DNA from: Flavobacteriales bacterium
Lineage (GTDB): Bacteria; Bacteroidota; Bacteroidia; JANQJC01
Reading direction: 5' to 3'
Assembly: GCA_028281825.1 (NCBI GenBank)
Contig: JANQJC010000076.1
Location: 1-64,000 of the forward strand
Length of the DNA: 64,000 bases
Shown here: piece by piece, positions 11,544 to 22,294 of the stretch
Position numbering within the stretch: position 1 is the stretch's first letter
How the letters are laid out: the number at the start of each line of letters is the position of its first letter
The notes under the pieces: model-generated
The model's database searches: none
What the model was told of the DNA's origin: nothing
The model's input: only the letters and a program-made list of their open reading frames with translations
Program-made: the position numbers and the translations under genes

Positions 11544-13856
11544 ATGAAAAGGTTATCACTTATATTAGCAACTTTTACAGTAAGTGTATGTTCACTTTTT
11601 GCACAAACAGGCACGGTAAGCGGTACTGTAAAGGATGCTAAGTCAGGCGAAACACTTATCGGAGTTAACATTACTTCTGGTGATTCTGGCGGAACAGTTA
11701 CCAATTTAGACGGTAATTATTCACTAGAATTATCCCAGGGCTCTCATAAGGTTAAGTTTAGTTTTATTGGATATCGAAAGCTAGAGAAGTCAATTGAACT
11801 GAAGGCTGGTGAGGTTTATGAGTTGAATGTAAGTTTGCTGGAAGCTTCCAAGGAGCTAGACATAGTTGTGGTTACTGGCAGTGCTTATGAAAAAAAGGCT
11901 GCTGAGGAGATTGTGAGTATTGATGTGATAAAACCCTATTTGGTTGAAAGCAACAATAATACTGATTTAGCACAAGCAGTAGAGAAGGTTCCCGGAGTTA
12001 ATATAATTGATGGTCAGGCGACAATAAGAGGTGGAGCGGGATATGCGTATGGGGCAGGTAGTAGGGTGCAAGTATTGGTTGATGAAATGCCATTGCTTAC
12101 TGGAGACTTGCAGGAAGTACGTTGGAACTTTGTACCAATGGAGCATGTGGAACAAATAGAGGTAATAAAAGGGGCAGCATCTTCATTATATGGCTCTTCA
12201 GCATTGAATGGTGTAATCAATATAAGAACCGGCTATGCTTATGATAAGCCTAAAACCAAGTTACAGATATACCAAGGGATATACAGTAACCCTAAGAGAA
12301 AAGAATTGCGTTGGTGGGATAAACCATACCATCCATTTTTCACTGGGGCTTTCTTTTCTCACAGAAGGCGTTTTGGTAATCTTGACTTAGTGGTAGGTGG
12401 GAACTTGAATTCAGAAAGCAGCTATTTGCAAGGTGGTGACGACCAACAGGTCCGCTTTAACTTTAAGACAAGGTATAGAAGTAAAAAAGTGGAAGGCTTG
12501 ACCTATGGTATTAACGCGAATGCCATGTATCAGCAATTTGGCCGTTTCTTTCTTTGGGAAAACAGTGATGAAGGTGCTTATAAGCCATTTGAGGGGACTG
12601 GTTCTAATGATTACTATTCATATGTTAACATCGACCCACATATCACTTACTATACAAAGGGTGGAACTAAGCATATGCTGCGAACAAGATATTATAACGT
12701 GATAAGATGGCAAGATGGGGAGTATAAGGGTTCATCAACTAACTTGTATTATGTAAACTATCAATACCAAAGATCATTTTCTGGGCATTGGACTGTTATT
12801 GCAGGTACTGTTTATAATTTTTCGAGGTCATTCAGTAATCTTTATAATGAGAAACTGTTTAATCAATTAGGTGCGGTATATACTCAGGTAGAGAAGAAAA
12901 TAAAGAGACTGACTCTTTTGGGAGGTTTAAGATATGAGATTAATGCCTTATACCAGACCACAGATACAGTATTAATTGAAGAGTCCAAACCTTTGGTGAG
13001 AGCTGGACTAAACTATCATATGGGTGCTGCTACTTATTTAAGGGCTTCATTTGGCCAGGGCTACCGCATACCAAGTATAGGTGAAAGGTACATACAAGAG
13101 AATATTACTCCAGCTATTAAGATATATAAGAATCCAGATCTTCATCCAGAGAAGGGTTGGACGGCTGAAGTGGGACTTAAGCAAGGGCTTAGCTTAGGTG
13201 AGTGGAAAGGGTATGCGGATTTGGCATTGTTCTGGACGGAGTTTGAGGATATGATTGAATTTACCTTTGGTCAATATGGAACTTCTGATAATATATTGGA
13301 GAATTTAGGTTTCAAAAGTCAAAACATCAATCAGGCGCGTGTGGCCGGATATGAAGTTTCTGCTTATGGAGAAGGCAAGATAGGGCCTATACCAGTACGA
13401 ATACTTGGAGGCTATACATTTAACTATCCTGCTGATATAGGAGTAGATACAACGCAGCAGAATGTGAACATTTACCTGCAAAATCTAATTCAAAGCTTTA
13501 CGGAGGTTGATTCTCTCATTAATACTGAAAGCATATTAAAGTATAGGCTGCGAAATGTGGTGCGTTTTGACCTTGAGTTTGACCTTGGTAGATTTACCTT
13601 GGGTGGTAGTATCAACTACAACAGTTTTATGGAAAGAATTGATGCCGTGTTTGACCTTATACCAGGTGTTACTCAATTTAGAGAGTTGAATAATAAAGGG
13701 GTTGCATTATATGATGCACGTATTGCCTGTAGGGTTTCAGAAAACAGTACTGTTAATCTTATAGCCCGGAATATCGAGAATTTAGAATATTCACTTCGAC
13801 CGGGTATGCTAGAGGCCCCAAGAAGCGTTGTGCTACAATACAAATTCAACTTCTAA
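11544..13856 (+). CDS. TonB-dependent receptor with N-terminal carboxypeptidase-regulatory-like domain
   Basis: This 770-residue outer-membrane receptor has a signal peptide (1-20) and a carboxypeptidase D regulatory-like beta domain at about 23-105 (GTVSGTVKDAKSGETLIGVN). The plug follows at about 110-230 (IRGGAGYAYGAGSRVQVLVD, then IEVIKGAASSLYG). A 22-strand type barrel ends in the terminal Phe of YKFNF. Such receptors import chelated iron, cobalamin or oligosaccharides using TonB-ExbBD energy. The substrate is not evident: no SusD partner, iron enzyme or polysaccharide gene adjoins it. It has its own -7 box upstream. Confidence 0.93.
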   Translation: MKRLSLILATFTVSVCSLFAQTGTVSGTVKDAKSGETLIGVNITSGDSGGTVTNLDGNYSLELSQGSHKVKFSFIGYRKLEKSIELKAGEVYELNVSLLEASKELDIVVVTGSAYEKKAAEEIVSIDVIKPYLVESNNNTDLAQAVEKVPGVNIIDGQATIRGGAGYAYGAGSRVQVLVDEMPLLTGDLQEVRWNFVPMEHVEQIEVIKGAASSLYGSSALNGVINIRTGYAYDKPKTKLQIYQGIYSNPKRKELRWWDKPYHPFFTGAFFSHRRRFGNLDLVVGGNLNSESSYLQGGDDQQVRFNFKTRYRSKKVEGLTYGINANAMYQQFGRFFLWENSDEGAYKPFEGTGSNDYYSYVNIDPHITYYTKGGTKHMLRTRYYNVIRWQDGEYKGSSTNLYYVNYQYQRSFSGHWTVIAGTVYNFSRSFSNLYNEKLFNQLGAVYTQVEKKIKRLTLLGGLRYEINALYQTTDTVLIEESKPLVRAGLNYHMGAATYLRASFGQGYRIPSIGERYIQENITPAIKIYKNPDLHPEKGWTAEVGLKQGLSLGEWKGYADLALFWTEFEDMIEFTFGQYGTSDNILENLGFKSQNINQARVAGYEVSAYGEGKIGPIPVRILGGYTFNYPADIGVDTTQQNVNIYLQNLIQSFTEVDSLINTESILKYRLRNVVRFDLEFDLGRFTLGGSINYNSFMERIDAVFDLIPGVTQFRELNNKGVALYDARIACRVSENSTVNLIARNIENLEYSLRPGMLEAPRSVVLQYKFNF

Positions 13857-13912: not shown

Positions 13913-15046
13913 ATGATAGGGCTCTACTTTGGGGCTTTAGCCGCGCTTTACCTTTCACTAAGGCTTTGGTATATAAATAGAAATACACCATCTGGAAAGT
14001 GGTTTATGACTATATCATCCGTGGTATTTACTCTTATACTTTTTGAGTTTACTGCTAATATCACTTTCTATGTGATGACGGGTAAATGGGTTTTTGCTGA
14101 ACTTGAATCTCATAATTCGAAATTATGGGAAGAGCATCCCCAACTGATTGGAGTGAATAAGAAGAATGTGAGTGTTTATTTGGATGGACACACTTATTCT
14201 CACAACTCAAAAGGGTGGAGAGGGGCTGAAAAGGATAATAAAGACGGTGAAATAGTAGTAGCAGCTATAGGTGGGTCTACTACTTATGGTGTAGGAGTGA
14301 GCGACAATGAAACATGGCCCCATTATCTAGATAGTTTATTACCAGAAGGTTATAAGGTGATAAACATGGGGGTGCCGGGGTATTCTACCATTGACAACAC
14401 AAAACAGGTGGGTTTGTATCTGGAAGGGATAAACCCTGGTTTGGTTCTGCTTCATGTTGGCTTAAATGACTTAAGAATAAGTCATTTGGAAAATATTGAG
14501 GATAGTTATGCTGATTTTCAGGCGGCAGGCTTATTTGCTTCTTTGGGGCTATGCTACAGGTATAAATTACCCAAAATAGCATCTTTGCGGGCAATAATAA
14601 TCGTGTTACAAGAATTGGGCTGGTATCCTACATGTTTGTTTCATCAGTTTCAATTTAATGGTTACATGCAATCTGGGGTTGACTCAATTGCATTGGATAT
14701 TTATGAAAACCATCTAAAAGATTTGGTCGGGCAACTCGCGGATAATGGTGCAGAAGTGTTTTTGGTGCCGCAAGTTATTAACTTGGAGCAATATCAAAAG
14801 TTTCCATACCAATGGTGGATACCTTACATAGAACCATCATCAATTGATAAGCACATTGAGGCTTTTAACAACACTTCAGAAAATGTGTTTGGTGAAGTTG
14901 GGTTGGGAGTTTATATCAATAGTGTGGATAGCGTAAAGTGGAAGGTTACTGACTTTTGTGATGCTGTTCATCTCAATAGAGATGGCAATCTTAAACTTGC
15001 ATCAATAGTATCAAGGACTATAACTGAAGCCCGCGGCTCAGAATAA
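13913..15046 (+). CDS. membrane-anchored SGNH/GDSL hydrolase family protein
   Basis: This 377-residue protein has two predicted N-terminal membrane segments (about 1-20 and 30-56) and then an extracytoplasmic SGNH domain. The nucleophile Ser122 lies in IGGSTTYG, block II includes GVPGYS near 153-158, block III is GLND at 183-186, and the Asp-His pair is DAVH at 350-353. The four blocks suggest an active esterase or O-acetyl hydrolase. The substrate is unknown. It follows the TonB receptor by 56 bp on the same strand. Its 3' end overlaps the convergent membrane protein gene by 29 bp. Confidence 0.85.
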   Translation: MIGLYFGALAALYLSLRLWYINRNTPSGKWFMTISSVVFTLILFEFTANITFYVMTGKWVFAELESHNSKLWEEHPQLIGVNKKNVSVYLDGHTYSHNSKGWRGAEKDNKDGEIVVAAIGGSTTYGVGVSDNETWPHYLDSLLPEGYKVINMGVPGYSTIDNTKQVGLYLEGINPGLVLLHVGLNDLRISHLENIEDSYADFQAAGLFASLGLCYRYKLPKIASLRAIIIVLQELGWYPTCLFHQFQFNGYMQSGVDSIALDIYENHLKDLVGQLADNGAEVFLVPQVINLEQYQKFPYQWWIPYIEPSSIDKHIEAFNNTSENVFGEVGLGVYINSVDSVKWKVTDFCDAVHLNRDGNLKLASIVSRTITEARGSE

Positions 15047-16235
15047 ATTTATAGAAGAAGATTACAGCCATCAGTATTGAGAGCGCTGCAATGGATACCC
15101 TACCTTTCTCATATATCTTTTGACGATAGATAAGAATTTCAAAGAAGGCACGTGCTCCCATAAAAGCCCATATTAATACAAACCCAAGTGCAACCATTAT
15201 AATAAAGTTAGCTCTTAAGTTGCCTGGGTAGTTTATCAGGAAGATTAAAATGGTGCCAATAATAAAAGGTATGATGCCCACTTGAAAAATTAGACGTGCC
15301 TTATCGGACTTTGTTTTAATAACCCTGCTTGACCAAGCTGTTTGTACAAATGGTTTCGCCATGAGTAGCCCAACTGGTATGGTTAAAACAAATCCCAGTA
15401 TTGCTAAAGCATTCTCAAAGGTGTTACTGTAATAAAGATATCCCGTAACTATACCCAAACTCATCTCGCTGGTTGGTTGCAGTCTGCCCTTGTAGTTAGG
15501 TATAGACATTAGTTTGGCAAGGAAATTCGCAAAGCCAATTAATGAAGTCCATATAAAGAATAAGCGAACGAAAACGTTTTTGTCCTTTAATAGGAGATAT
15601 ACTATATATGAGCCAAAACCTATGCCCAAAGTAAGGAAGGGCCCTGTGATAAAAATTCTTTTTACTGCATGTGGATACCATCCAGAATTGTTCAAATAAA
15701 CTATATAGGAGTAGTAAAGAATGGGCTTGAGCTTAAAGTATTTGGCAGCCATTGCCACAGCCAAATCATTAGCAAAGAATACCATCAAGTAGGTGGTAAC
15801 AAATATTATAGTGGAGTTAAAGAGGGCAAAGTTGTTTATCTCCCCAAAGAAGAAGTCATGGTAGGCATCCTTTAATTGCTGCCTTAGCATTATCACTCTC
15901 TCTTTAAAAGGTATTTTCTTCTTGGGAGCAGTTACAGATTTTTTGAACTTAGCCTTCATTTTGGCTTCAAGTTCACGTGCTTCACGAGCCTCCTTAATTC
16001 TCTCGGAAATACTTTTAGGTTTTGACTTGCGGTATACTTTTTTCCTAAACTCTTCCTGGAGCTTTTTATCCCTTTTATCGCGCGATACTAAGTACTTGAT
16101 GTACTCAGGTATGCTCATTCTTTTCCGTCCTTTTCTGACGGAACTTTTGAATTGTTGCTTGAGCTGGGCATCGCGGCGTTGTTCCGCAAAATATTCTTTA
16201 ATTATGTCGAGTAAGGTGCGTCTTTTTCTGGCCAT
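15018..16235 (-). CDS. hypothetical multi-pass membrane protein with 34-residue basic N-terminal repeats
   Basis: This 405-residue protein is not recognised. Residues 7-120 are very rich in Lys and Arg and form three 34-residue repeats and part of a fourth. Matching positions include K13/K47/K81, L25/L59/M93, F29/F63/F97, V33/V67/V101 and E44/E78/E112. The repeats look helical and should be cytoplasmic because they are strongly positive. Residues from about 128 onward hold six or seven hydrophobic membrane segments. No catalytic motif was seen. It lies 7 bp after the stop of the UvrD-family helicase gene on the same strand, so the two are probably co-transcribed. Confidence 0.7.
   Translation of the reverse strand: MARKRRTLLDIIKEYFAEQRRDAQLKQQFKSSVRKGRKRMSIPEYIKYLVSRDKRDKKLQEEFRKKVYRKSKPKSISERIKEAREARELEAKMKAKFKKSVTAPKKKIPFKERVIMLRQQLKDAYHDFFFGEINNFALFNSTIIFVTTYLMVFFANDLAVAMAAKYFKLKPILYYSYIVYLNNSGWYPHAVKRIFITGPFLTLGIGFGSYIVYLLLKDKNVFVRLFFIWTSLIGFANFLAKLMSIPNYKGRLQPTSEMSLGIVTGYLYYSNTFENALAILGFVLTIPVGLLMAKPFVQTAWSSRVIKTKSDKARLIFQVGIIPFIIGTILIFLINYPGNLRANFIIMVALGFVLIWAFMGARAFFEILIYRQKIYEKGRVSIAALSILMAVIFFYKFILSRGLQL
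15894..16217 (-). repeat. 102-bp-periodic coding repeat (34-residue units)
   Basis: It encodes residues 7-114 of the membrane protein. The period is 34 residues at every aligned position checked, with a pattern of SI.E.IK followed by basic helix, then F(R/K)K.V and a Lys-rich linker. The repeat is visible at protein level; the DNA has diverged. Confidence 0.7.
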
Positions 16236-16242
16236 ACCAGTG

Positions 16243-18612
16243 TCAGTTATTACTGATTATGCGCAATTTAGCAAACTTCAATAATAATTGTTTTTGTCCT
16301 ACATCAGGAAAAAATACTGTTGCTTTTGTATTCGGCATAATACCTTCTATCTGCAATACTTTACCGTTGCCAAATTTTTCGTGTTCCACTTGCATGCCCA
16401 CCTGTAACTTTTGAATCAACTCCAGTTGGTCAGCGCCAACGGGCTTTGATGTAATTTGACTTGTACTCGCTCTTGTCAGGTTTGGTTTTGTGGATGAATG
16501 TGTGTATGTCTTTTTTTCTTTGGCTTGATATCCTGTTGGTCTAGTCTCGGGAGTTTTTGGTTTCCAAACTGTCTTTTGTCTGGGCTCGAAACTGGTTTCC
16601 ACATTAGTCCTAGCTGTGCTTGCCCCACCAGAGAACTCTAAATACTTAGGTTCTATCTCTTCAAGAAAACGGCTCGGCTCACAGTGAATAAGGTTCCCCC
16701 ATTTGTACCTACTTACGGCAAAAGTGAGGTGGGCTTGTTTTTCAGCTCTGGTGAGAGCTACATAAAACAGCCGCCTTTCTTCCTCCAAATCTGCCCTAGA
16801 GTTAAGTGATAGTTGAGAGGGGAAAAGGTTTTCTTCCATACCACTCACAAATACATAGGGAAACTCTAGGCCTTTCGCAGCGTGAATGGTCATTAAGGAT
16901 ACCTTGTCTAAGTCATCCTTGTCCTTCTCATCAGCATCGGTAAGTAATGCAATATCTTGAATGAACTCATCTAATGTTCTCATACGTTCAATGAGTTCAC
17001 CATTCTCATCCACTGCTGGCGATTCATCAAACTCTTTGATAGCGTTGAGCAGTTCCTGGATGTTTTCGTACCTGCTTACTCCTTCGGTAGACTTATCGGA
17101 GTAGAGTTCTTTTAAGATACCCGAAGATTGAGCGATGTGCTCGGCTAATGAGTAAGCAGAGGTTTTTGGCAGGCCAATATTAAAGCTCTTAATCATAGTG
17201 ATGAAATTCCCCAGTTTTTCAGAAGTGCCTCCGTGAACAGGGAGGGGGTGATGTGCCGGGTTAGTCATTACATCCCACATGCTGGTATCTCTTTCACTGG
17301 CAATAACACTTATTTTCTCTATCGTGGTTTTGCCAATACCCCTAGTTGGGTAATTAATTACCCTTTTAAGTGCTTCTTCATCAGCTGGGTTAGCTGCCAA
17401 CCTGAAATATGCTATAAGATCTTTAATTTCTTTGCGTTGGTAGAAAGAAAGTCCACCGTATATCCTGTAAGAAATATTCAGCTTTCTTAATGCTTCTTCA
17501 ATGGCTCTGGATTGAGCGTTGGTTCTGTATAAAACAGCAAAATCTTTATCATGAACCTGCTCATTCATTTTGTATTCAAAGATGGCATGTGCAATCAAGG
17601 CACCTTCCTCATTATCGCTCATAGCCCTTGATACTTTTATTTTAGTGCCAGCATCATTATCTGTCCAGACCTCTTTTTTAAGCTGGTCGCGATTGTGTGC
17701 AATGATGTTATTAGCAGCATCAACAATTGTTTTGGTAGAGCGATAATTTTGCTCCAATTTAAAGGTCTTTAGGTCGGGATAGTCTTTTTCAAAGTTTAGG
17801 ATGTTTTGGATGTTGGCCCCTCGGAAGCCATAAATACTCTGGGCATCATCACCCACCACACATATATTCTCAAATACAGCGGCAAGTTTTTTTACAATTA
17901 CATATTGAGAGAAGTTGGTGTCTTGGTACTCATCTACCATTACATACCTGAACTTGTGCTGGTATTTGTGCAAAACATCAGGAAAGTCCCTCAAAAGGAT
18001 ATTAGTTTGATAGAGTAAATCATCAAAATCCATCGCGCCCGATTTAAAGCAACGAGAAGCATACTTTTGATAGACAATGCCCAACTTGGGTTTTGCAGAC
18101 ATTTTATCATCATTCTGTATCTCATTATTTTGAAGGTACGCCGTGGGTGATATCAAACTAGACTTGGCAGCGGATATCCTACTTAATACGGAGCCTGGTT
18201 TGTAAACCTTGTCATCAAGTTGCTCTTCTTTTAAAATGGTTTTGATGAGGCTTTTTGAATCGTCGGTATCGTATATGGTAAAGTTGCTGGGGTAGCCTAG
18301 CTTTTCAGCTTCAAAGCGCAGTATTTTAGCAAAAACCGAATGGAAGGTTCCCATCCAAAGGTTACGAGCTTCTGTACCGCCAACAATAGTTTCAATACGG
18401 CTTTTCATTTCTCTGGCAGCCTTATTGGTAAAAGTAAGAGCCAGAATATTAAATGGGTCAACTCCTTTTTCGAGCAAGTGGGCTATGCGGTAAGTCAAGA
18501 CCCTTGTTTTGCCAGAACCCGCGCCAGCGATAATCATTACTGGCCCTTCAGTGTGCTGCACAGCCAACCTCTGTACGTCATTCAACTCGTTTAAATAATC
18601 CCGCTCAGCCAT
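16243..18612 (-). CDS. uvrD: ATP-dependent DNA helicase, UvrD/PcrA family
   Basis: This 789-residue superfamily 1A helicase moves 3' to 5' on DNA in repair and replication restart. It has the Q motif LNDVQRLAV, Walker A AGAGSGKT at 29-36, motif Ia LTFTNKAAREM, Walker B DEYQDTN, motif III VGDDAQSIYGFRG, motif IV QNYRS, motif V LMTIHAAKGLEF and motif VI VALTRAE. The last 60 residues (LQVGMQVEHEKFGNGKVLQ) are the Tudor-like C-terminal domain that, in PcrA and UvrD, contacts RNA polymerase. Length and order are normal. A perfect -7 box lies 47 bp upstream. Confidence 0.96.
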   Translation of the reverse strand: MAERDYLNELNDVQRLAVQHTEGPVMIIAGAGSGKTRVLTYRIAHLLEKGVDPFNILALTFTNKAAREMKSRIETIVGGTEARNLWMGTFHSVFAKILRFEAEKLGYPSNFTIYDTDDSKSLIKTILKEEQLDDKVYKPGSVLSRISAAKSSLISPTAYLQNNEIQNDDKMSAKPKLGIVYQKYASRCFKSGAMDFDDLLYQTNILLRDFPDVLHKYQHKFRYVMVDEYQDTNFSQYVIVKKLAAVFENICVVGDDAQSIYGFRGANIQNILNFEKDYPDLKTFKLEQNYRSTKTIVDAANNIIAHNRDQLKKEVWTDNDAGTKIKVSRAMSDNEEGALIAHAIFEYKMNEQVHDKDFAVLYRTNAQSRAIEEALRKLNISYRIYGGLSFYQRKEIKDLIAYFRLAANPADEEALKRVINYPTRGIGKTTIEKISVIASERDTSMWDVMTNPAHHPLPVHGGTSEKLGNFITMIKSFNIGLPKTSAYSLAEHIAQSSGILKELYSDKSTEGVSRYENIQELLNAIKEFDESPAVDENGELIERMRTLDEFIQDIALLTDADEKDKDDLDKVSLMTIHAAKGLEFPYVFVSGMEENLFPSQLSLNSRADLEEERRLFYVALTRAEKQAHLTFAVSRYKWGNLIHCEPSRFLEEIEPKYLEFSGGASTARTNVETSFEPRQKTVWKPKTPETRPTGYQAKEKKTYTHSSTKPNLTRASTSQITSKPVGADQLELIQKLQVGMQVEHEKFGNGKVLQIEGIMPNTKATVFFPDVGQKQLLLKFAKLRIISNN

Positions 18613-18659
18613 TGAGAATCAATAATTTTTTGATAGAGAAACACCCAAAACTTAACTCG

Positions 18660-18667
18660 CAAAGTTA
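18660..18667 (-). promoter_or_regulatory. candidate uvrD promoter -7 box
   Basis: TAACTTTG on the minus strand is an exact TAnnTTTG match 47 bp before the uvrD ATG. A -33 TTTG is not evident. Confidence 0.5.
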
Positions 18668-18736
18668 GTATTTTTGGTACATCTGAATTGATGAAAGGAG
18701 CTAAAAATCAGAGAGTTTTAAGAAAATTATTAACGA

Positions 18737-18766
18737 TTGGTACACATATTTTTTTTCGTAAATTTG
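18737..18766 (+). promoter_or_regulatory. promoter of the SprB-repeat adhesin gene
   Basis: TTG (18737-18739), a 19-bp spacer and TAAATTTG (18759-18766) form a good Bacteroidota sigma-ABfr type promoter. It lies within an in-frame upstream extension of the adhesin reading frame, so translation should start at the ATG at 18803 rather than at the upstream GTG. Confidence 0.65.
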
Positions 18767-18802
18767 GACGATTTTTTAGGAATAACCTTTAATAAACCAC
18801 CT

Positions 18803-21800
18803 ATGACTTTAGCGTTACGTAAAGTCTTCCTTACCTTGTTGATAGTACTTGTTGGGTTTTTATTCTCAAATAATACCCAAGCACAGTGTGTTACTACACC
18901 TGTAACTGGAGATTTGATTATTACCAGTAATACTTCGCTTTCAGGAACGTACAACATTACAGGTACTTTCAGAGTAGACCCTGGAGTTACTGTTACCGTT
19001 ACTCCTTATAGCTCAAATAGTTGTGGTGAATTAATTATTAATGCAGCCGTAATTGATATTCAGGGTAACATCAATGCAGATAATGCTGGATATAATGGTG
19101 GTGCAGGTGGCGCAGGTTCAAACAATGGAGTCAATATAATATATCTTACCAATTGTGTTGACAAAGATAATTGCTTCAATGTACAGGTGTTTGGTGGCAC
19201 TGCAGGTGCCAATGGAAATGGAACAGGTGCAGGTAGTGCAGGCGGTAATGGGGGAACAGGCAGTGGGCCTAAACAGGAGTGCGGTTCCTTTGGTGACGAT
19301 TATGGAAGAGTAGGTGGAGCTGGAGGTGCAGGTGCGGGTGCAGGCGGGTCTTATGGTGCTGCAGCCAATGCTGGAGGTGCAGGGGGTGCTGGTAACTCAT
19401 CAGGTAGCTTTAACTCAATATCACAAGCAACTTGTTCATCTCCTGTAGCAGGAGTGGCAGGCACAGCTGGTACTATTGCAACAGCTTATGGGACTAACAC
19501 AGGAACTGACATAGACTTAGGTTCTGGTGGCGCTGGCGCTGGTGGTGGCGGCAAAAGCCATGGCGACGGTGGTAACGGTGGCAATGGCGGTAATGGTGGT
19601 GGAAAAGTGTCTTTAAACTCTGCTGGTGCATTAACTATAACTGGCAATATTACTGCAATGGGTGGTGTTGGAGGCAATGGTGGCAACGGCGGTAATGGTG
19701 GAATTACCAATGATAGGTGTTGCACGGACGGTTGTAATGGTTGTGATGAGAATACCTATTCCGGTGGCGCTGGCGGTGGAGGTGGCGCTGGTGGCGGTTC
19801 TGGCGGTGGTATTTTAATCAGCGCCCTTGGAGACATGGCTATTTCTGGAACTTTAAATGCCCAAGGTGGTTCAGGTGGCGCTGGAGGTGGTGCGGGAAGT
19901 GCTTCAGGCCAATGTGACTATGCTAGTTTTTTGTGTGCTTGTGGCTGTAATGATGGTATAATCAATGCAGGTAATCCTGGAGCTCAAGGCGGTGGAGGCA
20001 GTGGTGGTCGTATTAAGATATTTGAAAACCCATGTAGAACTAATAATATTAGCCCAACTATTCAAATAGCTGGAGGTTCGGGTAATAGTGGTGTGGCAGC
20101 AAGCGGTGTTTATCATTTGGGAGCCAATGGTAGTATAAACAGTCCGGGTGGAACTATCGCATCAACTGATGTTAGCTGTTTTGGTTTAACTGACGGACAG
20201 GCTACCGTAACTGCAACAGGCGGCACCACGCCGTATACTTATGCCTGGAATGACCTAGGTAATCAAACTACTCCAACTGCTTCAAACCTTGGAGCGAACA
20301 CCTATACGGTGATAGTAACAGATGCTAATGGTTGTGACACCTCATTAACAGTTACTATTAATGAGCCTTCTCAATTAACTGTTGGAACTGTAGTAACAGA
20401 TATATTATGTAATGGAGATACTACTGGTGATATCACTGCAAACCCCAATGGCGGAACGTCTCCTTATACTTATGCTTGGAGTGACCCCAATAACCAAACT
20501 ACACAAACAGCAAGTGGTTTAACTGCAGGAACTTATACTGTTACTGTAACTGATGATAATGGTTGTAATAGCACTGCAACAGCGATTGTGAATGAACCTG
20601 GTGCCCTTTTAGCGGTGACTTCTGTGGTTTCTGATGTAAGCTGTTTCGGATTGAGCAATGGGCAGGCAAGTGTGGCGCCATCTGGTGGTGGCGGTGGTTA
20701 TACTTACGTATGGAGTGACCCCAATGCCCAAGTAACCCAAATTGCGAGTGGATTGGCAGCGGGAACCTATACTGTTACGGTGACAGATTTGAATAATTGT
20801 ACAGCAACTGGCACAGTAACTATCAATGAACCTGCAGAATTGATAGCCTCGGCAACATCACTACCTACCTCATGTAATGGAGGCAATGACGGCATGGCTA
20901 TAGGCTCAGCTACTGGAGGAACTATGCCTTACACGTATTTATGGAGTGACCCTAATAGTACCTCAAATGATACCTTATTTAATCAAAGTGCTGGAACATA
21001 TACTGTAACTGTAACTGATGCGAATCTTTGTACTTCAACAGCTACTGTGGTAGTTGATGAGCCTGTTGCATTGACTGCAAGTGTTGCGGTGGATAGTAAT
21101 GTAAGTTGTAATGGTGGTAGTGATGGTGCTGTTACCGTGAATCCATCTGGAGGTACAAGCCCTTACAGTTATTTGTGGAATGACCCTGCCGGGCAAAGCA
21201 ACCAAACTGCTATCAATTTGGCAGCAGGCACCTACGAGGTGACTGTAACAGATGATAATAACTGTACTTATGTGGTGCAAAATGTGTTGATTACACAACC
21301 ACAGGCGTTAACGCTAAGCGTTGGCTCAACTGTAGAAGTTAGTTGTAACGGTGGCAACGATGGCGCAGGAACCGTTATTGCAAGCAACGGAACGGCCCCT
21401 TATGATTTCTTATGGGATGACCCCAATACGCAGGCTACAGCAACAGCAACCGGGTTAGCTGCAGGCACTTATCAAGTATTGGTAACAGATGATAACGGTT
21501 GCACAGAAACAATCACGGTAAATATTTTAGAACCAACGGCACTAACGGTTAATGTAACCGATGATATTGATGTAACCTGCAATGGAGGCAGTGATGGTGA
21601 GGCTGTTGCTCTTGCTTCAGGCGGTACTGGTCCTTATACCTATATATGGGTACCATCAGGGCAAACCGGAACTACGGCTGATAGTTTGCCAGCGGGTGAG
21701 TATGTAGTGACTGCAACGGATGATAATGGATGCACGGCTACTGATACTACAATTATCAGTCAACCGCCTAATATCCTTTTGGCTTCGTTTACTGCTTCAC

Positions 21801-22294
21801 CTGACACGGGATTACAACCTTTGGATGTGGTTTTTACCAACAATAGTATTGGTGCATCATCCTATGAGTGGATATTTGGTGACGGGGAAACCTCAATTGA
21901 TGTGGCTCCAGTTCATTTATATGAGGACTCAGGGTTGCAAGAAGTGGTTTTGGTAGCATTTGATTCAGTAACTGGTTGTACAGACTCTATGTACAACTAC
22001 ATTTATATAGAGCCCACATCCATATTTGAAGTGCCTAACGTATTTACACCAAATGGTGATGGAATAAACGATTTGTTTAATCCAAAGTCTCGCAACCTTA
22101 CTGAGTTACGGGGTGAGATATATAATCGCTGGGGCCAAAAGGTATATGATTGGAGAACGCCACAGGATGGGTGGGATGGATATAGCTTAAGTAGTGTTGA
22201 GGTCTCAGCTGGTGTATATTTCTATGTTTTGAAGGCAAAGGGTGTGGATGGTAAGGAATATGAACAAAAAGGCTCAGTTCACCTGTTGCGCTAG
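18803..22294 (+). CDS. SprB-repeat surface adhesin with T9SS type B (CHU_C) sorting domain
   Basis: This protein of 1163 residues has a signal peptide (to about residue 28, ending NTQAQ). Residues 93-403 form a glycine-rich region that includes two cysteine clusters. Seven tandem SprB repeats of about 77 residues follow at 455-991, then a PKD domain at 993-1073 (EWIFGDGE). The gliding-motility-associated C-terminal domain starts at 1075 (FTPNGDGINDLFNP, then EIYNRWGQKVYD). It should be exported by T9SS and held on the surface as an adhesin. SprB-repeat proteins serve in gliding or attachment. No PorP/SprF-like partner gene is adjacent. The ATG at 18803 is chosen because the promoter at 18737-18766 lies upstream of it. 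Confidence 0.9.
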   Translation: MTLALRKVFLTLLIVLVGFLFSNNTQAQCVTTPVTGDLIITSNTSLSGTYNITGTFRVDPGVTVTVTPYSSNSCGELIINAAVIDIQGNINADNAGYNGGAGGAGSNNGVNIIYLTNCVDKDNCFNVQVFGGTAGANGNGTGAGSAGGNGGTGSGPKQECGSFGDDYGRVGGAGGAGAGAGGSYGAAANAGGAGGAGNSSGSFNSISQATCSSPVAGVAGTAGTIATAYGTNTGTDIDLGSGGAGAGGGGKSHGDGGNGGNGGNGGGKVSLNSAGALTITGNITAMGGVGGNGGNGGNGGITNDRCCTDGCNGCDENTYSGGAGGGGGAGGGSGGGILISALGDMAISGTLNAQGGSGGAGGGAGSASGQCDYASFLCACGCNDGIINAGNPGAQGGGGSGGRIKIFENPCRTNNISPTIQIAGGSGNSGVAASGVYHLGANGSINSPGGTIASTDVSCFGLTDGQATVTATGGTTPYTYAWNDLGNQTTPTASNLGANTYTVIVTDANGCDTSLTVTINEPSQLTVGTVVTDILCNGDTTGDITANPNGGTSPYTYAWSDPNNQTTQTASGLTAGTYTVTVTDDNGCNSTATAIVNEPGALLAVTSVVSDVSCFGLSNGQASVAPSGGGGGYTYVWSDPNAQVTQIASGLAAGTYTVTVTDLNNCTATGTVTINEPAELIASATSLPTSCNGGNDGMAIGSATGGTMPYTYLWSDPNSTSNDTLFNQSAGTYTVTVTDANLCTSTATVVVDEPVALTASVAVDSNVSCNGGSDGAVTVNPSGGTSPYSYLWNDPAGQSNQTAINLAAGTYEVTVTDDNNCTYVVQNVLITQPQALTLSVGSTVEVSCNGGNDGAGTVIASNGTAPYDFLWDDPNTQATATATGLAAGTYQVLVTDDNGCTETITVNILEPTALTVNVTDDIDVTCNGGSDGEAVALASGGTGPYTYIWVPSGQTGTTADSLPAGEYVVTATDDNGCTATDTTIISQPPNILLASFTASPDTGLQPLDVVFTNNSIGASSYEWIFGDGETSIDVAPVHLYEDSGLQEVVLVAFDSVTGCTDSMYNYIYIEPTSIFEVPNVFTPNGDGINDLFNPKSRNLTELRGEIYNRWGQKVYDWRTPQDGWDGYSLSSVEVSAGVYFYVLKAKGVDGKEYEQKGSVHLLR
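20164..21775 (+). repeat. seven tandem SprB repeats
   Basis: There are seven units of about 230 bp. Each encodes S/T-C-(N/F)G-..-DG, then GGT.PY.Y.W.DP, then AGTY.VTVTD.NGC and a closing EP or QP. Units 2 to 6 are closest to each other. Each is about 75-80 residues and is predicted to be a beta-sandwich with a conserved Cys pair. Confidence 0.9.

Follow-up and report, generated by a model that had tools for sequence, protein, structure and literature searches.

A putative zinc-less relative of site-2 proteases with a basic tail of 34-residue helical repeats, encoded behind pcrA/uvrD in a Flavobacteriales bacterium

The window analysed here is the whole stretch of 64,000 nucleotides at positions 1 to 64,000 of contig JANQJC010000076.1 of a Flavobacteriales bacterium. 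On its reverse strand it carries P0001, an open reading frame of 405 residues, the product of which combines a basic N-terminal tail with a membrane domain that we regard as a zinc-less relative of site-2 proteases (S2Ps). The gene upstream is pcrA/uvrD, as the first, sequence-only reading of this DNA had noted; it ends 7 nt away from P0001 and is likely co-transcribed with it. On the other side, a convergent GDSL-type gene overlaps the end of P0001 by 29 bp and separates it from a TonB-dependent receptor. A promoter and terminator scan of 14900-18800 gave scores near the shuffle mean. Positions 18737-22294 encode an 1185-aa protein with seven SprB repeats and a CHU_C type IX secretion signal. 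The genes around P0001 and the features within it are the following:

11544..13856, forward strand: TonB-dependent receptor, convergent neighbour retained in clade f10
13913..15046, forward strand: GDSL-type gene, convergent to P0001
15018..16235, reverse strand: P0001, basic helical-unit tail and zinc-less S2P-related membrane domain
16243..18612, reverse strand: pcrA/uvrD (UvrD/PcrA)
16119..16220, reverse strand: repeat unit 1, residues 6-39 (self-similarity; model helix 2-35)
16017..16118, reverse strand: repeat unit 2, residues 40-73 (self-similarity; model helix 42-67)
15915..16016, reverse strand: repeat unit 3, residues 74-107 (self-similarity; model helix 76-102)
15837..15914, reverse strand: partial unit 4, first half only, residues 108-133 (model helix 110-130)
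15021..15836, reverse strand: membrane domain, residues 134-405 (family alignment, model, structure match)
15756..15770, reverse strand: NDLAV, residues 156-160, opposite HExxH of relatives and of real S2Ps (alignments, BLASTP)
15696..15725, reverse strand: beta hairpin, residues 171-180, at the position of the S2P membrane-reentrant beta-loop (model)
15639..15644, reverse strand: GP, residues 198-199, opposite GP of S2Ps (alignment, profile-profile)
15453..15470, reverse strand: SEMSLG, residues 256-261, opposite GD(L/T/I)G of HExxH-bearing relatives (alignment)

When residues 1-126 are compared with themselves, the best offset is 34 (BLOSUM62 sum 88; 24 of 92 residues identical), followed by 68 (sum 43; 14 of 58 identical). 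The offset-34 score was reached by none of 5000 shuffles at offset 34 itself, nor by any of 5000 when the whole range of offsets 20-60 was allowed. This bears out the three full units and partial fourth that the sequence-only reading had marked at 15894-16217 (residues 7-114), together with their periodicity in F, V, K and L, to which I can be added: positions K4, I12, K13, F29, V33 and K38 are identical across the three full units, and one L/L/M position is likewise retained. The repeats were also called exact, which holds for their spacing and not for their sequence. At the DNA level, no repeats of at least 15 nt were found in 15800-16260, which speaks against exact repeats or a recent duplication. 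The units are strongly positive, as had been stated, with 43 K/R and 18 D/E in residues 1-133.

An AlphaFold2 model of P0001 computed with 36 relatives (pLDDT 83.8, pTM 0.72) agrees with the helical look of the units. Its tail consists of four predicted helices, one per unit (block pLDDT 54-85), which are 21-34 residues long and are connected by K/R-rich linkers. TPR/PPR-type repeats of 34-35 residues were rejected, as the model has one helix per unit rather than two antiparallel helices. No Pfam repeat family was found for P0001 at E <=1, and a match to AnkF was dismissed (E 0.37). Besides itself, the N-terminal region alone has only four matches in 395 genomes of the class (E 0.001-0.01); the best of them, L050, is a 72-residue frame with a stop, surrounded by unrelated ORFs. 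A plasmid search gave no match. The VIA and Foldseek matches to the tail, which was modelled as part of full-length P0001, are long-helix matches and were set aside.

The tail is followed by a multi-pass domain for which six or seven membrane segments had been proposed; the model contains seven long membrane-type helices and a short one, with pLDDT mostly above 90. The architecture had not been recognised from the sequence, and it is the membrane half that can now be placed. P0001 matches no model in Pfam or NCBIfam, PF02163 and PF13398 included, and PDB sequence searches with P0001, the 36-row family alignment A3 and P0003 returned no meaningful match. The connection comes instead from relatives that bear HExxH. 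In a genome search, P0001 finds L092 (GTDB family f9), which has the motifs HEVGH, AGP and GDIG, at E 4.5e-12. BLASTP aligns the two at 3e-12 (21% over residues 135-337), with NDLAV of P0001 falling on HEVGH, and phmmer gives 47.5 bits, compared to at most 9.1 bits for local shuffles of L092 (972 scored of 1000). When 395 genomes of the phylum were searched with a profile, seven of them matched at E 1e-5 (the window's own included), and L041, L042, L039 and L040 were reached. In A3, NDLAV aligns on HELGH of L041 and HECAH of L042, and this column also contains intermediates, namely NELGL (L039), QELFL (L040) and NEYST.

The link to S2Ps themselves was obtained by comparing a profile of the 34 members without HExxH with eight group-III-like S2Ps from Bacteroidia genomes. 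The two align with a score of 42.4 (P 4.3e-5), NDLAV on HEFGH and GP on GP. Control scores were 13.3 for the reversed profile, at most 20.9 for 200 local column shuffles and 13.1 for one decoy membrane-family profile. Without L039 and L040 the score drops to 34.6 (P 6e-4), and the same profile does not match ten RseP-type S2Ps (P 0.2). Single S2P sequences score 12.6-20.2 against the profile in hhalign, no better than 15 decoys (up to 18.8), so the S2P case is carried by the profile-profile comparison and by direct homology to the HExxH-bearing proteins.

L092, L041 and L042 form a group of their own (tree support 100/99), with GD in place of the LDG of S2Ps. They are possibly active proteases outside the Pfam M50 cut-offs: L042 scores 16.4 bits against PF02163 (cut-off 27.2) and L041 15.9 bits against PF13398 (cut-off 26). 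L042 also has a weak match, which P0001 does not share, to the daptide intramembrane metalloprotease model NF041824 (8.1e-5 over 44 residues; 21.9 bits, cut-off 300).

The predicted structure may point in the same direction. Among solved structures, VIA ranks mjS2P (3b4r) first for P0001 (Z 7.2, rmsd 4.0 over 132 residues) and SpoIVFB (8vjl) second (Z 6.6, rmsd 4.1 over 121), the next row having Z 5.6. For the separately modelled L007, SpoIVFB is the sole match with Z >=5 (6.0, rmsd 4.6 over 123); as all these Z values are below 8, they may, by the tool's own note, reflect a common arrangement only. In both models a beta hairpin directly follows the HExxH-equivalent helix (strands 171-173/178-180 in P0001 and 190-192/197-199 in L007). 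The zinc ligands of mjS2P, which we take to be at positions 54, 58 and 148, fit N156 and V160 of P0001 with a structural offset of about 100. S2Ps have a membrane-reentrant beta-loop, which in mjS2P enters from the cytoplasmic side, according to PMC4597795. Foldseek gave no match at E <=0.001 for either protein: mjS2P appears for P0001 at E 0.55 (probability 0.57); the 50 matches listed for L007 contain no S2P. The remaining VIA and Foldseek rows (GPCRs, transporters, TMEM16) are scattered.

Taken together, sequence homology, profile and structure matches make it very probable that the membrane domain of P0001 descends from the S2P (M50) fold. A seven-helix receptor-like protein of the 7TMR-DISM type, without kinship to S2Ps, is a far-fetched alternative. 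PF07695 (7TMR-DISM_7TM) does match three of 36 members at E <=0.01, with 29.1 bits for L005 and 27.5 bits for L006 (cut-off 29), but only the C-terminal half of these f4 proteins is matched and P0001 shows no match. Its direct homology to HExxH-bearing proteins also argues against this alternative, as do the structure matches, which S2Ps head. L005 and L006 themselves have an S2P-related N-terminal half and a C-terminal half near the PF07695 cut-off.

What P0001 lacks is the zinc site. NDLAV occupies the HExxH column, and at the third zinc ligand P0001 has SEMSLG, compared to GDLG and GDTG in L041 and L042 and GDIG in L092. Both histidines and the aspartate are retained only in L041 and L042 among the 35 A3 rows that cover the region. 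Since the site is lost (HExxH to NDLAV, GD to SE), P0001 should be unable to cut by the S2P mechanism; from alignment and model, the loss of canonical catalysis is almost certain, and P0001 is, as predicted from both, an S2P-type pseudoprotease. The least credible reading is that it still cuts, by means of a metal site that is displaced or of another kind. Some relatives do have polar or acidic residues at the site (NE, QE, ND), and P0001 retains D157 and E257, but neither of the two histidines nor the aspartate of the GD column remains, and in 23 of 36 rows the second histidine has given way to T.

A genome search with P0001 matches 36 of 395 genomes of the class at E <=1e-6, its own included. 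A contig search with P0001 gave no match, and one with the close alignment A2 gave five loci that encode proteins already in the set. With six proteins added to the 36 of A3, the family comparison comprises 42; seven identical copies and three near-copies (L022, L023, L032), none of them long-tailed, were left out before counting. Neither Pfam nor NCBIfam recognised this bacterial family in our searches.

The repeats singled out by the sequence-only reading are nearly absent from the homologues. Only P0001 and L007 of the 42 proteins have a helical-unit tail (the N terminus of L026 is cut off), so the tail must be dispensable for the core role of the family. The L007 tail has units of about 30 residues; its best offset, 61, was reached by two of 500 shuffles, and its alignment score with the P0001 tail, 73, by one of 500. 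Five helices are predicted in it (2-25, 44-69, 75-87, 101-121 and 129-142). A match of this tail to Sipho_Gp157 was dismissed (20.1 bits, cut-off 28.6). Four other proteins, L088-L091 (families f50 and f59), have K/R-rich N-terminal tails of about 45-85 residues in which no repeat units are seen by eye.

In the tree, P0001 is the sister of clade f10 (support 96/92), and L007 is placed elsewhere, on a long branch. The f10 tails are short and repeat-free, and acidic in five of the eight with a readable N terminus; the repeats were either gained in the P0001 line or lost in f10. The P0001 gene is the ortholog of the f10 gene. In f10 loci, pcrA lies on one side in eight of nine cases (the ninth, L026, ends before pcrA), with starts that overlap or lie close together, and a TonB receptor lies on the other side in all nine. 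The GDSL-type gene of the window was not found in these loci, where the TonB receptor comes directly next. The uvrD neighbourhood, the conservation of which had been singled out for checking, is thus retained in clade f10, but the flanks examined for L007, 1.5 kb long, yielded no uvrD. Because f10 keeps pcrA without repeats and the L007 flanks show no uvrD, the repeats are not linked to uvrD/pcrA.

The genome of the window encodes a second family member, L015, on another contig (C94); it is 294 aa long and has no tail. L015, with L013 and L014, groups with the second copies in f10 genomes (support 100/100), so the paralogy is older than the split between the P0001 line and f10. An ordinary RseP-type M50 protease (L069) is encoded in the same genome.

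The orientation of the domain was judged from loop charges. Loops 2, 4 and 6 are more positive than loops 1, 3 and 5 plus the C terminus in all 36 rows (two of them partial). In P0001 alone the charges are +7 and +6, which is barely decisive. Of loops 1 and 2, the second carries the higher positive charge in 33 of 35 rows; the two are equal in L007, and P0001 alone shows the reverse. In a control of real S2Ps, loop 1 is the more positive in five of the six that could be measured out of eight, with one tie. The positive-inside rule is well established, and export of a huge basic tail is unlikely under it, so an N-in P0001 agrees with its tail. The N terminus of P0001 is therefore likely cytoplasmic, and the family loop charges favour the cytoplasmic side to which the repeats had tentatively been assigned, despite the narrow difference in P0001 itself.

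The same charges suggest that the orientation of the family is inverted relative to canonical S2Ps. P0001 has no helix ahead of the HExxH-equivalent one; the HELGH motif of SpoIVFB lies in the second helix (PMC9042235). In a rather doubtful extension of this idea, the family would be an inverted S2P branch that lacks the first helix of mjS2P and SpoIVFB and has its former active-site face on the periplasmic side; the HExxH clade (L041, L042, L092) would be active inverted proteases, and P0001 a dead descendant that now acts as an adaptor in the membrane and carries the basic repeats as its tail. Some other groups of intramembrane proteases exist in both orientations, and if the inverted orientation is true, S2P cores would too. 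The phrases "site-2 protease" and "inverted topology" were not found together in any paper searched; a synonym of the latter stands beside the former in at least one paper among the matches listed, PMC2647162.

The probable role of P0001 is to hold or anchor partners at the membrane, not to cut them. We lean, by a modest degree, towards a scheme in which it is a membrane pseudoprotease that holds its partners and is anchored by its basic tail; the more specific role of an adaptor or chaperone is tentative. In this scheme, an S2P-fold domain without its zinc site, which would not cut by the S2P mechanism, is preceded on the presumed cytoplasmic side by an array of four basic units, repeated in sequence and helical by prediction. 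A transmembrane helix from a client or partner would be held uncut in the former substrate cleft. The basic array would dock the complex on an anionic cytoplasmic surface, with lipid head groups as the first preference, followed by ribosomal or other nucleic acid.

Two other explanations concern the tail. It may be a device of membrane surface and topology, its basic helices lying on the inner leaflet to keep the protein N-in, without any specific binding partner. This is rather unlikely, though it would suit the finding that, among 35 rows, the loop signal is weakest in just those two proteins that have big basic tails, and that the L007 helices are, by eye, rich in W and F. Against it, an ordered 34-residue repeat exceeds the needs of an anchor, and the hydrophobic moments of nine tail helices are not above those of shuffles (fractions 0.05-0.42), which leaves amphipathic membrane helices unsupported. 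Less probable still is that the basic units bind nucleic acid, be it DNA beside PcrA or RNA and ribosomes, and tether it to the membrane. The density of K/R in the 133 residues and the tight linkage to pcrA, both in the window and in the sister clade, would fit, but f10 keeps this linkage with its short, often acidic tails, L007 lacks uvrD in the flanks examined, and no known nucleic-acid-binding family was matched in Pfam or NCBIfam.

Of the known systems, the membrane domain is closest to group III S2Ps (mjS2P, SpoIVFB; M50, PF02163), which are the best VIA matches of P0001 and L007 and match the family profile. P0001 shares with them the order of HExxH-helix, beta hairpin and GP-helix. Unlike them, it has no zinc ligands and no helix before the HExxH-equivalent one, carries extra C-terminal helices and the basic tail, and belongs to a family with loop charges opposite to those of the S2P control. 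A family left unnamed by Pfam and NCBIfam in our searches thereby gains a place in the S2P fold, and its graded series from HExxH to complete loss within one bacterial phylum is a natural record of a protease becoming a pseudoprotease.

No bacterial family of S2P pseudoproteases is among the matches listed in the literature. A plant counterpart is EGY3 of chloroplasts, an S2P relative likewise devoid of HExxH that reportedly keeps other proteins stable and leaves them uncut (PMC10978774); it is a plastid protein and is likened to P0001 by these reported features. In its proposed mode of action, P0001 would resemble iRhoms, dead intramembrane proteases in which a long cytosolic N terminus governs partner binding (PMC10896983). 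The rhomboid fold of iRhoms is unrelated, so this is an analogy and not membership, and their tail is reported to be disordered, in contrast to the predicted helical units of P0001. These comparisons suggest that what is new here is an unnamed bacterial family with possibly inverted loop charges and, in two of its 42 members, a basic helical tail, whereas the S2P pseudoprotease as a kind is already known from plants.
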